Positions 6,492-27,240 of a DNA stretch of 32,970 bases are shown in pieces. Each line of letters begins with the position of its first letter. Position 1 is the stretch's first letter. Where the stretch lies: NCBI GenBank assembly GCA_021372615.1, contig JAJFUB010000142.1, forward strand, positions 1 to 32,970, in the 5' to 3' direction. This DNA comes from a bacterium (GTDB lineage Bacteria > Armatimonadota > Zipacnadia > Zipacnadales > UBA11051). The notes beneath the pieces were generated by a model. The model searched no databases. It was not told where the DNA came from and was given only the letters and a program-made list of their open reading frames with translations. Both the position numbers and the translations under genes were made by a program.

Positions 6492-6554
6492 GGTACGCCC
6501 GACACTCCTGTCGGGCGGTGTCGTCGGTCGCCCCACAAGAGTGTCGGGCGTACC
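6492..6554. repeat. palindromic repeat element P1 (intergenic)
   Basis: Outer 16-bp perfect inverted repeat (6492-6507 with 6539-6554; arm GGTACGCCCGACACTC). The left half also folds on itself as GCCCGACA-CTCC-TGTCGGGC (6497-6516), so alternative structures are possible. Its first 25 nt recur exactly, in the opposite orientation, at 21871-21895. It lies between the kinase stop and the ftsK promoter, where it could also end the two-component transcript. Confidence 0.8.
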
Positions 6555-18235: not shown

Positions 18236-18298
18236 AGTAGGGCGGGCGGCCTCGCCCGCCCGTGGCTGGCTTGCGCGGGCGAGGCCGCCCGCGCTACT
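18236..18298. repeat. palindromic repeat element P3 (intergenic)
   Basis: A 24-bp inverted repeat with one mismatch (18236-18259 with 18275-18298) and a 15-nt loop. The arm begins AGTAGGGCGGGCGGCC. It starts like the elements at 21837 and 27164 (GTAGGGCGGG). It lies 32 nt after gltX, where it can also act as a terminator. Confidence 0.8.
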
Positions 18299-20622: not shown

Positions 20623-21801
20623 CTACAGTTCCTCGAACCGCGGGATCTCCACGTAACGTCCCTCGTCCAGCGAGACGCGGGTCGCAACGCCGATGGCGGC
20701 ACTCTCGTAGCCGGCCTGCAGGTTGCACAGCGGCTCGCGTCCCTCCTGGCACGCCGCCGCGAAGTCCGCCAACAGCGCCGGGTCGGCTCCCCCATGGCCG
20801 GTGTCGCGCGTCGGTCGCTCGCGCCGCTGGTCGCGGTTGCCGTAGCGGCGCGTCACCTCGATGTACGCCACGCCCGTGTCGTGGTTGGCCTCGACATCGA
20901 GCTGCGCCTGCGACCCAAACAGCGTCATGTGCATCCCGTAGTACGGCGCGAAGTGGATCTCGTGGTAGCTGCCGACGACGCCGGAAGCGTACTCGATGTT
21001 CACGAGGCTGACGTCCTCGACATCGGCGGCCTGTGACCACACGCAGTAGTCCTCGCCCTGCTCCAGCTCCACGCCGGGTGGGTCGAGCCAGCGCTTGTCG
21101 TCCATGACGTGCTCGCACGTCTCGCGCCGGTCACAGTCGCGGCAGTGCTTGTCGGCCGGCTCGTCGCCGCCGAAGAAGCGCCTCGCGCCGACGGCCGACA
21201 CCTGTCGGGGGCTCGACGCCACCAGCCAGTTCATCAGGTCCAGCCCGTGCACGCCCTTCTGCAGCACGAGGCTGACGACGTTCTCTCGCGAGCGTGTCTT
21301 GCCGCGCCCGAAGAACTGGCCCTTGTCCCGGCCGACGTACTCGGCCAGGGTGGCGCTGAGCACGGTGCCGATCTCGCCGCTGTCCACGATGGCCTTCACG
21401 CGCCCCCACAGCCCCGAGAAGCGCAACTCCAGGAACGTGCCGACCACCAGGCCGCTCTCGCGCCGCAGATGCGCGATCTCCCGCATGTCCTCGAAGGACT
21501 GCGCCAGCGGCTTCTCGATGAGCACGTGCTTGCCGTGCCGCAAGCCCTCGCGGGCGTTGCCGGCATGGAAGCGGTCGCCGGTGCCGATGAGCACCGCCGC
21601 GATGTCCGCCTCGCGCGCCATGTCCTCGCCGGACCCGTAGAAGGCGATGTCCGGGAACATCATACGGGCGATGTCCAGCATCCTGGGGTTCATGTCCGCG
21701 ACGGCTTGCAGTTGCGTGTGGGCGCCCTCATTGGCCATGCGCGCGAGCCACAGCCCGCGAATGCCCAGACCGACGACGCCGACCTTCAGTTGCTCCGGCA
21801 T
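20623..21801 (-). CDS. Gfo/Idh/MocA family oxidoreductase with Cys cluster
   Basis: 392-aa predicted NAD(P)-dependent dehydrogenase. The Rossmann start is VGVVG11-L-G13-IRG, and E96-K97-P98 carries the catalytic lysine. G-V-H-G-L-D-L-M-N is the active-site HxxD-like segment. A Cys-rich insertion, C-R-D-C-D-R-R-E-T-C-E-H, could bind a metal and is found in a subset of the family. The ATG at 21801 is preceded by GGAGGG; the longer upstream reading runs through a palindromic repeat and is rejected. The stop is only 11 nt from the stop of the convergent secreted PHP-like gene, leaving no room for a separate terminator. Probably part of a minus-strand sugar-related cluster reaching back to 25168. 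Substrate unknown. Confidence 0.9.
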   Translation of the reverse strand: MPEQLKVGVVGLGIRGLWLARMANEGAHTQLQAVADMNPRMLDIARMMFPDIAFYGSGEDMAREADIAAVLIGTGDRFHAGNAREGLRHGKHVLIEKPLAQSFEDMREIAHLRRESGLVVGTFLELRFSGLWGRVKAIVDSGEIGTVLSATLAEYVGRDKGQFFGRGKTRSRENVVSLVLQKGVHGLDLMNWLVASSPRQVSAVGARRFFGGDEPADKHCRDCDRRETCEHVMDDKRWLDPPGVELEQGEDYCVWSQAADVEDVSLVNIEYASGVVGSYHEIHFAPYYGMHMTLFGSQAQLDVEANHDTGVAYIEVTRRYGNRDQRRERPTRDTGHGGADPALLADFAAACQEGREPLCNLQAGYESAAIGVATRVSLDEGRYVEIPRFEEL

Positions 21802-21836: not shown

Positions 21837-21911
21837 CTGTAGGGCGGGGGCTTGCACCCCGCCGTACAGAGCCCGACAGGAGTGTCGGGCGTACCCCCCC
21901 CCGCCCTACAG
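21837..21911. repeat. nested palindromic repeat element P4 (intergenic)
   Basis: Outer 14-bp perfect inverted repeat (21837-21850 with 21898-21911, arm CTGTAGGGCGGGGG). Inside are two further hairpins: GGCGGGG/CCCCGCC (21843-21849 with 21857-21863) and GCCCGACA/TGTCGGGC (21871-21878 with 21883-21890). The second, with the following GTACC, is an exact reverse complement of 25 nt of element P1 at 6492-6516. The first 27 nt nearly equal the arm of element P6 at 27163. One element therefore seems inserted into another. Confidence 0.85.
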
Positions 21912-21916
21912 GGCCC

Positions 21917-22993
21917 CTACTGCGCCGCCCTGGCCGCGGGCCGCATGTCCGGCACCGCGACCGGCTGGCTGCCGTTCTCGGCCGACATGTGCGCGCAGAC
22001 CCCTGGCAGTGTCTGGTCGAGGCCCTCGTACACGTCAATGGCGGGCTTGGTGTCATCCAGGATGCAGCGCACGAAGTCATCCACCATGTAGTACTCGCTG
22101 GTGCCATGGCCGCCGAGGGTGGCTTCCGGCGGCGCGCCCCGGTGGTTGGTGCCCAGGGGCAACGGGATCTGTGAGGTCAGGCTCGGGTGCCCCTCCAGCC
22201 ACAGCAGGTGCTTGCCGTCGGGCGTGCGCGGGCTCTCGATCTGGCCCTTGGTGCCGTAGATGCAGAACCAGTGGTGCGCCGGCTCCTTGGCCACCGAAAA
22301 GCCGCACAGCTCCTTGATGACGTTCCCCTTGGCGGTCTTGAAGATGCCGACTTCCATGTCGATGTTGCCGATCTCGGGGCGCCGGCGGCAGCCCGTGTGC
22401 ATGCCCACGGCCGTGACGACGCGGTCCTGCATGATCTGCAGGATCGGGCCGAGGTCGTGCGTCGGGTACAGGATCGGGGGGAGCCGCGTGCGCCAGGTGA
22501 GTTTGCCGTCCTGGTCGTACATCAGCCCGCCGAGGTCGTGGATGTACTCGCCTTCGGCGTAGACGATCTCGCCCAGGTCCCCCCGGTGGGCCATCTCGCG
22601 GTAAGCCTGGACCCACGCGTAGTAGCACATGTTCTCGGCGAACATGTACTTGAGCTTCGGCGCGGCCTCGACCGCGGCGACCAAGTCGTGGGCCTGCTGC
22701 AGGTCGTAGCACGCGGGGACTTCGGACAGCACGTGCTTGCCCTTCTGCATCGCCTCGACGACGCAGGGCACGTGGACCGGCGCGGGGGTGGCGACCAGGA
22801 TCGCGTCGAGGTCGGCCTCGCAGAACTTGCTGTAGTCATCGAACCAGTAGGGGACGTTGTTCTCCTGCGTCCACTGCTGGGCCAACTCGGTGCGCAGGTC
22901 GCAGCCGGCGACGACCTGGCACTCCTTGTGGTGCAGAAAGACGCGGGCGACGCCCGCGCCACGGCGCAGACCGGCGACACCGACTCTCAACAT
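21917..22993 (-). CDS. Gfo/Idh/MocA family protein with variant EVP motif
   Basis: 358-aa member of the sugar-dehydrogenase family. The nucleotide-binding loop is VGVAGLRRGAGV. Where relatives have E-K-P, this has E91-V92-P93 in HVLSEVPACYD, so the usual catalytic lysine is replaced by valine. The rest is normal: CYYAWVQAYREMAHRGDLGEIVYAEGEYIHD and the PTHDLGPI segment with a His-Asp pair. Such EVP members exist among uncharacterised relatives; the protein may use another base or act without redox chemistry. AGGTGA precedes the ATG, 10 nt after the stop of the 97-aa gene. The C-terminus ends in an Ala/Arg-rich tail. Likely co-transcribed with neighbours; substrate unknown. Confidence 0.88.
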   Translation of the reverse strand: MLRVGVAGLRRGAGVARVFLHHKECQVVAGCDLRTELAQQWTQENNVPYWFDDYSKFCEADLDAILVATPAPVHVPCVVEAMQKGKHVLSEVPACYDLQQAHDLVAAVEAAPKLKYMFAENMCYYAWVQAYREMAHRGDLGEIVYAEGEYIHDLGGLMYDQDGKLTWRTRLPPILYPTHDLGPILQIMQDRVVTAVGMHTGCRRRPEIGNIDMEVGIFKTAKGNVIKELCGFSVAKEPAHHWFCIYGTKGQIESPRTPDGKHLLWLEGHPSLTSQIPLPLGTNHRGAPPEATLGGHGTSEYYMVDDFVRCILDDTKPAIDVYEGLDQTLPGVCAHMSAENGSQPVAVPDMRPAARAAQ

Positions 22994-25258: not shown

Positions 25259-27157
25259 ATGGCTATGCACTCCCGGAAGGCATGGGCGGCCCTGATCGCG
25301 ATCCTGGCCCTGGCCCTGGTGCTCCGCACCGTCGGCCTGCGCCGCCTCGTGTACACCAACCCGGACGAGGCCCTCTGGTCGTACTTCATCGTCACCGGAG
25401 CCCAGTTGTCCTGGCTGTCACCCCACCCGTCCACCAATGCCCTCGCCCACATCCTGAGCTGGGACTACGGCTACCCGCTGTTCGTGGTGGATGATCTGTA
25501 CGTCCGGGCGCTACAGGCGGTCGGCTTCCCGGTCAACGAGGCGACGCTGCCCCTGCCGCTGGCAGTGTTCGGCACGCTCAACTGCCTGCTGGTCTTCCTG
25601 ATCGCCAGCCGCGTCGGACTGTGCCGCGTCGGACTGTGCCGCGTGGGGGCGCGTGTCCCCACGCGCCCATGCGGGCGTGAGGACACGCCCGCCCACGCGA
25701 CCCTCCCCGCTCACGCGACGTGCGCTGCCCTTGTCGCCGCTACGCTCATGGCCGTCATGCCCCTGGCCGTCGGGCGCTCGCGCTCCATCGGCGGCGCGGA
25801 GGCCTGCAGCGGCTTCCTGCTGCTCCTGGCGATGCTCCAACTGATGCGCCATATGGAGCGACCCCACGACCGCCGCCGGCAATGGCTCGCCGGGCTGTGT
25901 GTGGGGCTCTACCTGTGCGGGGATGTGCAGTTCGTGCTCGGCGGGGCGGTGCTGCTCGGGCTGCTGGCGCTGTGGCCGGTGGGGTCGCGGTCGGTGACCG
26001 CTCCCACGCCCGAGGCGGAGGGGGAGGCCGCGGCAGAGCCCGCCGGGGAGCGACCGGTGGACGTCGGCTGGCGTGAGCGGCTGCGCCTGCTCTGGCGGCC
26101 CGGGGTGCTCCTGCCGCCACTCGTTCTGTTCGCTCCCTATGTGCCGGCCTGGCTGTATGCCATCCACCTGGGCTATCGCAACCAGACCTACCTCGGCACC
26201 GTCCTGGCCGAGCACAAGGCCGACTGGGGCTTTCACCTGCTGCCCTTCGGCCGCGATCTGGCCCAGAACCTGGGGGTCTTCCCGTTCCTGGCCCTCCCGG
26301 TGCTGCTGTGGTACTTCGCGCGCCACTGGCGCCGCCCCCAGCAATGGCTCCTGCTGTGGATCGGCGTGACTGCGCTCCCGTTCATCTTCGCCATCACGAG
26401 CACCGTGACAGAGGCCTCCGGCTACCACGAGCACCTGGCGGCCGCGCTGGCCATCGCGCTGGGCCTGGCGCTGAGCGCCCTGTCGAGGCCGTTGGAGGGG
26501 CCGGCTATCAGCCGGCCCGTCGTGGGCTGCTCGAAAGGCGCGGGCCGGCTAGTAGCCGGCCCCTCCAACGGCACCGCCCGCGGCCTGGCGGCTGCCATGC
26601 GGGCCGTCACCGCGCTGGTAATTGTGGCGACGTTGCTGGTCACGCTCGGGGGGGTGTTCCGGGTGACGCCGCTGGTGCCGCTGTGGCCGGCGACGAAGAT
26701 CCCCTACGGGGGCCTCGTGCCCAATAGCGGCATGAAGGCGGCAGGCTGGTGGGTGCGGCAGAGCCTGCCGCCCGACGCGCCGGTCTTCGCGGCCCACGAC
26801 CCGGCCGTGGCCTACTGGTACATGGGGCGGGAGTGCGTGACGGGCGGCCTCGTCCCCACCCCCCAGCGCAAGCAGGCCCTGCTGGCGAACGCCCCCCGAC
26901 TGGCGGCCGCGGTCATTCCAGGGCAATTCGCCGCCTACCCGCCGGACTTCATGCGGCAGCTTGGCTTCACGGGCCGCATCTGCGTACTGGAGGGTGGCGT
27001 GGAGCGGCTCAACATCTACACCCGCACCGGCACCCAGGTCACGCTCACGACCGAGGCCACCGATCCGCTCTACAACGCGGCCATCCGCACTCCCCTCGCC
27101 ATCATCCCCCCCGGCTGGCCCTACGCCCCCGGCAAGCCAGTGAACGCTGGGCCGTAG
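25259..27157 (+). CDS. GT-C family integral membrane glycosyltransferase (PMT/ArnT-like)
   Basis: 632 aa with roughly ten membrane helices and a C-terminal extracytoplasmic domain. The first loop has YTNPD36-E37-ALWSY, the acidic motif of GT-C enzymes that transfer sugar from a polyprenyl-phosphate donor. A helical core follows, with YHEHLAAALAIALGL near residue 395. The soluble C-terminal part begins about residue 490 (ATKIPYGGLVPNSG). Two low-complexity Arg/Pro/Gly-rich stretches (about 118-147 and 411-438) are encoded by palindromic repeats inserted in frame, both at predicted ends of membrane segments. ATG at 25259 is chosen; ATG at 25265 is also possible. Acceptor unknown; lipid or protein glycosylation is typical. 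Confidence 0.82.
   Translation: MAMHSRKAWAALIAILALALVLRTVGLRRLVYTNPDEALWSYFIVTGAQLSWLSPHPSTNALAHILSWDYGYPLFVVDDLYVRALQAVGFPVNEATLPLPLAVFGTLNCLLVFLIASRVGLCRVGLCRVGARVPTRPCGREDTPAHATLPAHATCAALVAATLMAVMPLAVGRSRSIGGAEACSGFLLLLAMLQLMRHMERPHDRRRQWLAGLCVGLYLCGDVQFVLGGAVLLGLLALWPVGSRSVTAPTPEAEGEAAAEPAGERPVDVGWRERLRLLWRPGVLLPPLVLFAPYVPAWLYAIHLGYRNQTYLGTVLAEHKADWGFHLLPFGRDLAQNLGVFPFLALPVLLWYFARHWRRPQQWLLLWIGVTALPFIFAITSTVTEASGYHEHLAAALAIALGLALSALSRPLEGPAISRPVVGCSKGAGRLVAGPSNGTARGLAAAMRAVTALVIVATLLVTLGGVFRVTPLVPLWPATKIPYGGLVPNSGMKAAGWWVRQSLPPDAPVFAAHDPAVAYWYMGRECVTGGLVPTPQRKQALLANAPRLAAAVIPGQFAAYPPDFMRQLGFTGRICVLEGGVERLNIYTRTGTQVTLTTEATDPLYNAAIRTPLAIIPPGWPYAPGKPVNAGP
25611..25698. repeat. composite palindromic element P5a with 15-bp tandem repeat, in frame
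   Basis: Begins with two copies of GCGTCGGACTGTGCC (25611-25625, 25626-25640). GCGTGGG at 25641-25647 can pair with CCCACGC at 25692-25698. This encloses GCGTGGGG/CCCCACGC (25641-25648 with 25657-25664, an alternative) and a perfect 9-bp hairpin GCGGGCGTG/CACGCCCGC (25671-25679 with 25684-25692). It is translated in frame as VGLCRVGLCRVGARVPTRP and onward. Confidence 0.75.
26489..26571. repeat. palindromic repeat element P5b, in frame inside the glycosyltransferase gene
   Basis: A 31-bp inverted repeat with two mismatches (26489-26519 with 26541-26571; arm starts CCGTTGGAGGGGCCGGCTA) and a 21-nt spacer. It is read through in frame as LEGPAISRPV...GRLVAGPSN, and the flanking sequence resumes a membrane helix. 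Confidence 0.85.
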
Positions 27158-27163
27158 GTGTCC

Positions 27164-27240
27164 TGTAGGGCGGGGGCTTGTACCCCGCCCCCTGTGGCAC
27201 TCACTGAACGGATGGGCGGGGTACAAGCCCCCGCCCTACA
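27164..27240. repeat. palindromic repeat element P6 between convergent genes
   Basis: A perfect 27-bp inverted repeat (27164-27190 with 27214-27240; arm starts TGTAGGGCGGGGGCTTG) with a 23-nt spacer. The left arm also folds as GGCGGGG/CCCCGCC. It matches the outer portion of element P4 in 26 of 27 positions. It lies between the stops of the glycosyltransferase and the DUF4838 gene, so it may also terminate both. Confidence 0.88.

Follow-up and report, generated by a model that had tools for sequence, protein, structure and literature searches.

A probable mosaic REP doublet built from two hairpin repeat families in an armatimonad genome

Genomic setting of the composite element

The window, which is the whole stretch of 32,970 nucleotides analysed here, comprises the entire contig C142 of a draft genome of 6,412,752 bases in 171 contigs. 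It carries a 75-bp composite element between two genes that run in the same direction, and the parts of this element are drawn from two repeat families, designated A and B (Table 1). The upstream gene is one that we take to be oxidoreductase-like. In 29 loci from relatives, which extended past the first gene by about 1.5 kb at most, the second gene was beside the first in none (0/29), and no empty site was found. A plasmid search found no plasmid. An Rfam scan of the window returned nothing but one cobalamin riboswitch, which lies away from the composite at positions 1050-1192 on the minus strand (65 bits, gathering score 31.5).

The window also contains other palindromes. A 32-nt inverted repeat (94%, arms 21 nt apart) is located within an open frame at 26488-26572, and GGAGGGGCCGGCTA, taken from this repeat, occurs 9 times in a 0.83-Mb sample of contigs that were picked by length and may hold fewer repeats. 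A further hairpin pair, AGTAGGGCGGGCGGCCTCGCCCGC, is located at 18236-18298, and the related 14-mer AGTAGCGCGGGCGG occurs 14 times in the sample. The most frequent 14-mers in the genome sample (L038-L077) together with the window were GTCACCGACCGCGA (24) and CGGTGACCGCTCCC (22), which probably represent another palindromic family.

Table 1. Coordinates of the composite element, its neighbouring genes and the free doublets of both families in the window
Feature	Position	Strand	Basis or comparison
Downstream gene, co-directional, with its likely start 35 nt beyond the composite	20623..21801	-	ORF list
Family A REP arm, complete (CT, GTAG head and GGCGGGG/CCCCGCC hairpin)	21837..21863	+	26/27 against 27163-27189
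Spacer of 7 nt, GTACAGA, from A arm to B arm; occupies the usual place of the 25-nt A loop	21864..21870		Sequence; canonical A loops
Family B arm, minus-strand sequence GGTACGCCCGACACTCCTGTCGGGC	21871..21895	-	Exact reverse complement of 6492-6516
Outer half of A right arm (CCCCCGCCCTACAG, 21898-21911), preceded by two extra C	21896..21911	-	Compared with 27215-27239
Upstream gene, ending in a stop codon 5 nt away from the composite	21917..22993	-	ORF list; 64% identity in nearest relative
Free B doublet	6492..6554		Arms 6492-6516 (+) and 6530-6554 (-)
Uninterrupted REPIN-like A doublet with family-type loop	27163..27241		Arms 27163-27189 (+) and 27215-27239 (-)

Layout and fold of the composite

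The initial annotation had described the inner part of the element (21871-21895) as the exact reverse complement of 6492-6516, and the two are identical at 25 of 25 positions. It had also matched the flanks of the element to the arm at 27163-27189; this is true of the left flank (21837-21863, 26 of 27 positions), whereas the right flank holds only the outer half of an arm. The composite lacks the 25-nt A loop as well as 13 nt on the inner side of its right A arm. The 3' part is a run of C followed by GCCCTACAG, ending at 21911. On reading the sequences, GTAC and GCCCTACAG are 8 nt apart in the composite, the same spacing as in a normal A right arm. The nested-hairpin fold of the composite reached -32.3 kcal/mol against a shuffle mean of -21.3 (n = 200, z -4.3), and no shuffle equalled it.

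An assembly chimera of two repeats might be suspected in a draft of 171 contigs. However, a 75-bp element is below the usual read length and both flanks are same-direction genes with open frames, and this explanation is considered extremely unlikely.

Family A

Family A is a GTAG-headed REP, in which, as the definition of GTAG REPs demands, a GTAG head stands next to a short hairpin. Its arm has 142 genome matches at up to 3 mismatches (reversed control 0), and at least 65 exact GTAG copies are present among the matches listed. A census of stretches totalling 1.01 Mb, with 4 mismatches allowed, gave at least 116 arms, and the numbers given for A forms are minimum values. Most often the arms form a convergent pair spanning about 77 bp. 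Thirty-five pairs were found at unlike sites, none of them with B, and most share a like 25-nt loop near CCGCATGGCACNNACCGAACGGATG. These A doublets agree with REPINs, as inverted REP pairs with a spacer that are repeated as a unit, while the window composite is a partial doublet only.

Of 251 genomes from the phylum, 21 carry A, own genome counted, and 20 of these 21 belong to the order of the window; the highest copy number among the 251 genomes searched is that of the own genome. Relatives carry stem-preserving variants of A, with GTAG retained in most of the copies listed. Exact A was also found in 32 stretches of species genomes, from four record sets titled candidate division WS1, Armatimonadetes or plain bacterium. 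In the records of four relatives, none of 35 exact A arms belonged to a convergent pair, so the doublet form of A is not general.

Of 26 A/B clusters, 14 were wholly intergenic, 4 partly so, and 8 lay within genes called by a crude gene caller, the last figure being due in part to the caller picking the longest start, as at the composite itself (21837-21911). Random 77-mers were wholly intergenic in 235 of 5000 cases (4.7%).

Family B

The B core has 121 genome matches at up to 2 mismatches (reversed control 1), with at least 96 arms free of any mismatch among the matches listed. The census of B covered 118 arms in 1.01 Mb of stretches, against the 121 cores of the whole genome at up to 2 mismatches. 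The consensus is G-GTAC-GCCCGACA-CTCYTG-TCGGGC, and G precedes GTAC in 110 of 118 arms. B forms convergent pairs, in which the gap is mostly 12-16 nt, as well as longer runs and singles. With 142 matches for A and 121 for B against reversed controls of 0 and 1, a chance origin of the match is rejected, and two families do meet at one intergenic spot, as had been proposed from the window.

The head of B in the own genome is GTAC, and the absence of a GTAG head there counts against its assignment to the GTAG REPs and against the preferred reading given below. B-like hairpins in three further genomes (G001, G023 and G033) have GTAG or GGAG heads. B is REP-like, and a RAYT partner is presumed for it. 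It was detected in 4 of 251 genomes, with 157 matches in the own genome and 38 in the other three combined, both strands being counted, so that near-palindromic B arms may score twice. The exact B pattern had 0 matches in species genomes, a set that may leave out the record of the window itself. A thus looks old and shared, and B young and local, which supports a recent spread of B. This spread is likely. Recent mobility had originally been claimed for the composite; the evidence carries it for the B family only, which is nearly confined to the own genome and has the many mismatch-free arms given above. Taken together, A and B are small non-autonomous hairpin repeats and are probably mobile.

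B hairpins within A repeats

The outer A half was sought in the outside flanks of 62 B loci (124 flanks) in shells of 45 nt. With up to 2 mismatches allowed, 14 of 62 loci had an outer A half directed toward B, in 17 of the 124 immediate flanks; in 4 flanks it was directed the opposite way, and the five further shells gave 1, 2, 0, 0 and 0 halves directed toward B. The drop from 17 to between 0 and 2 indicates that B lies inside A beyond chance. At up to 3 mismatches, 23 of 124 flanks were positive against 4.3 in shuffles, and random 45-mers were positive in 384 of 20000 cases. Four B loci have outer A halves on both sides (C67:34525, C19:78932, C161:51989 and C95:16415). It could be argued that REPs land independently, side by side, in permissive intergenic space, and the intergenic enrichment of A/B clusters fits this idea. 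It is nevertheless very unlikely and was rejected on the strong orientation bias and the sharp drop past 45 nt around B loci.

The element might also be the standard form of a single family, and one hybrid arm is indeed common to a few loci, with 5 matches at up to 3 mismatches. Against this, 48 of 62 B loci have no outer A half (up to 2 mismatches) and 35 A pairs have no B. Free copies of both kinds, which the initial annotation had proposed to look for, are present: A pairs without B, and B pairs, runs and singles without A. Because each family is found without the other, the composite is not a standard form. The single-family explanation is refuted by these free copies and has next to no probability.

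The way in which the two families are joined varies. At several loci the join is direct, of the form GGGC-GGGG-GTAC (the hybrid arm, with its 5 genome matches at up to 3 mismatches), while the composite in the window has 8 bases from GGGC to GTAC, which is the normal distance of an A arm. Because joins differ among loci, no single joining event is fixed. The suggestion that B was inserted into the loop of A stands insofar as B occurs within A far beyond expectation, but no intact A loop surrounds B. With the 25-nt loop lost together with 13 nt from the inner side of the right arm, the composite points to a replacement or a join and not to a clean insertion.

B could have been inserted cleanly into the loop while the A doublet was still intact, with the loop and part of the right arm being deleted later. 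At a similar locus, C92:196709, a B arm follows a degenerate A left arm and is separated by 7 nt from an A right arm, and hairpin C, described below, nests cleanly in one A arm in most of its 11 copies. In the window, however, the loop and 13 nt are missing, yet the distance from GTAC to the outer end is normal. This normal distance favours a join at GTAC over an insertion with a chance deletion, and the two-step course is rather unlikely. A tentative alternative is that template switching or recombination joined the A and B hairpins, with no transposase at the joining. Both families have GTAC and G-rich runs in common, the join points vary, and the A-clade RAYT is absent from the own assembly, all of which agree with it. 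Template switching alone leaves B within A at 14 of 62 loci unexplained, unless A hairpins are hot spots.

The preferred reading, which is held to be probable, is that the composite is a mosaic REP doublet, in which a B-type REP hairpin occupies the place normally taken by the A loop and by the right A arm's inner half. The lack of an A-clade RAYT in the own genome and of an empty site in the relatives' loci (0/29) counts against it, as do the differing joins and the unpaired exact A arms of relatives.

RAYT transposases

RAYTs are HUH/Y1 single-strand transposases. The own genome encodes seven Y1 proteins. Five of the seven match the NF047646 model (REP_Tyr_transpos) best, at 65-89 bits, and two of the seven pass its curated cut-off of 80; the remaining two are IS200-like. 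Neither A nor B adjoins any of the seven Y1 genes, with one A copy at a distance of about 1.3 kb.

Matches to the RAYT model were present in 33 of 41 genomes of the order. The A-clade RAYTs comprise L234 and four others with 52-60% identity to it, and other RAYTs reach at most 41%. All 5 A-clade RAYT loci in relatives have A-type repeats (up to 6 substitutions) next to them, against 0 of 34 other RAYT loci, which include 4 repeated places and correspond to 30 distinct ones. Three of the five A-clade RAYTs form a 100/100 clade in the tree. No A-clade RAYT was found in the own assembly, where the best match had 34% identity. On the basis of sequence association, the putative cognate RAYT clade for A has been identified in relatives and not in the own genome. 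The gene may be lost, may fall in the part absent from an assembly that is roughly 97% complete, or may be replaced in trans.

Hairpins at RAYT loci in L251 (1419-1442 and 2080-2103) and L253 (1379-1402) have the same 12-nt tip as B, GACACTCCTGTC, with a different stem, and offer a lead to the B transposase.

A second case of nesting

Hairpin C, about GTAGAGAYCGCNNGCGRTCTCA, has 18 matches, of which 11 lie in A, 6 in a palindrome called D, and 1 is probably due to chance. The 11 copies in A are at unlike sites, and in these C is located within one A arm, at the GGGC/GGGG boundary. Its insertion mostly took place without loss of A sequence, although the copy on C31 lost some. Among 10 A-C copies examined by eye, the loop faced one way in 4 and the opposite way in 5, and 1 was unclear. 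In L035 (1270-2070), reading of the sequence revealed a RAYT gene with a C-bearing D palindrome on either side and, between these, a D-like copy that is uninterrupted.

Because C occurs within both A and D, hairpin nesting looks like a habit of the own genome. It can be tentatively hypothesized that REP hairpins in this lineage are favoured REP targets, that nested products themselves can multiply, and that layered REP-in-REP elements may depend for their movement on RAYTs of other clades acting in trans. The evidence for this is the presence of C at the same place of the A arm in 11 copies, with both loop orientations, and the repeated B-A joins.

Proposed mechanism and relation to known systems

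During replication, a RAYT would cut the single-stranded REP hairpin next to a GTAG-like head. The cut REP would then be rejoined at a new place, and other REPs would be favoured for joining. The join in the window falls at GTAC, which is common to the A arm and the B head, and would have arisen either through strand transfer by a RAYT or through a template switch between hairpins. Because the composite lies 5 nt after a stop codon, any transcript that spans both same-direction genes would contain it in hairpin form.

For GTAG REPs, the part of the report by Di Nocera et al. (2013, PMC3733652) considered here describes hybrid dimers of different families, which make up about 10% of the S. maltophilia dimers, and REP dimers within other palindromes. 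The repeats of the own genome resemble those REPs in being short GTAG-headed hairpins of high copy number, with inverted dimers and a mostly intergenic location. They differ from those covered there in sequence and phylum, in the loss of half an A arm at the join, and in the GTAC head of B. In the portion of Bertels and Rainey (2011, PMC3116915) consulted, REPINs consist of inverted REPs with a spacer that form one long hairpin, which the A doublet of about 77 bp resembles. Unlike the REPINs of that portion, A has no cognate RAYT in the own genome, the composite is a partial doublet, and the case here is known from sequence alone. Hybrid BIMEs with REPs of two RAYTs have been described by Nunvar et al. 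(2010, PMC2817692), and RAYT genes flanked by inverted REPs are common to that account and the present one; the match between REP and RAYT was made here in relatives, outside the genome of the window, which sets it apart from that account. A literature search for nested, chimeric or hybrid REPs yielded nothing closer than these three papers, and a search pairing 'Armatimonad' with 'repetitive extragenic palindrom' found no paper.

The composite is thus a fresh example of a known repeat type and no new kind of thing, and its interest lies in the layering of hairpins. The link between one REP family and one RAYT clade extends over several bacterial families, and the specificity of this pairing is therefore testable. 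The composite itself provides a sequence-level example of what is probably mosaic REP formation, with both parent families intact close by.
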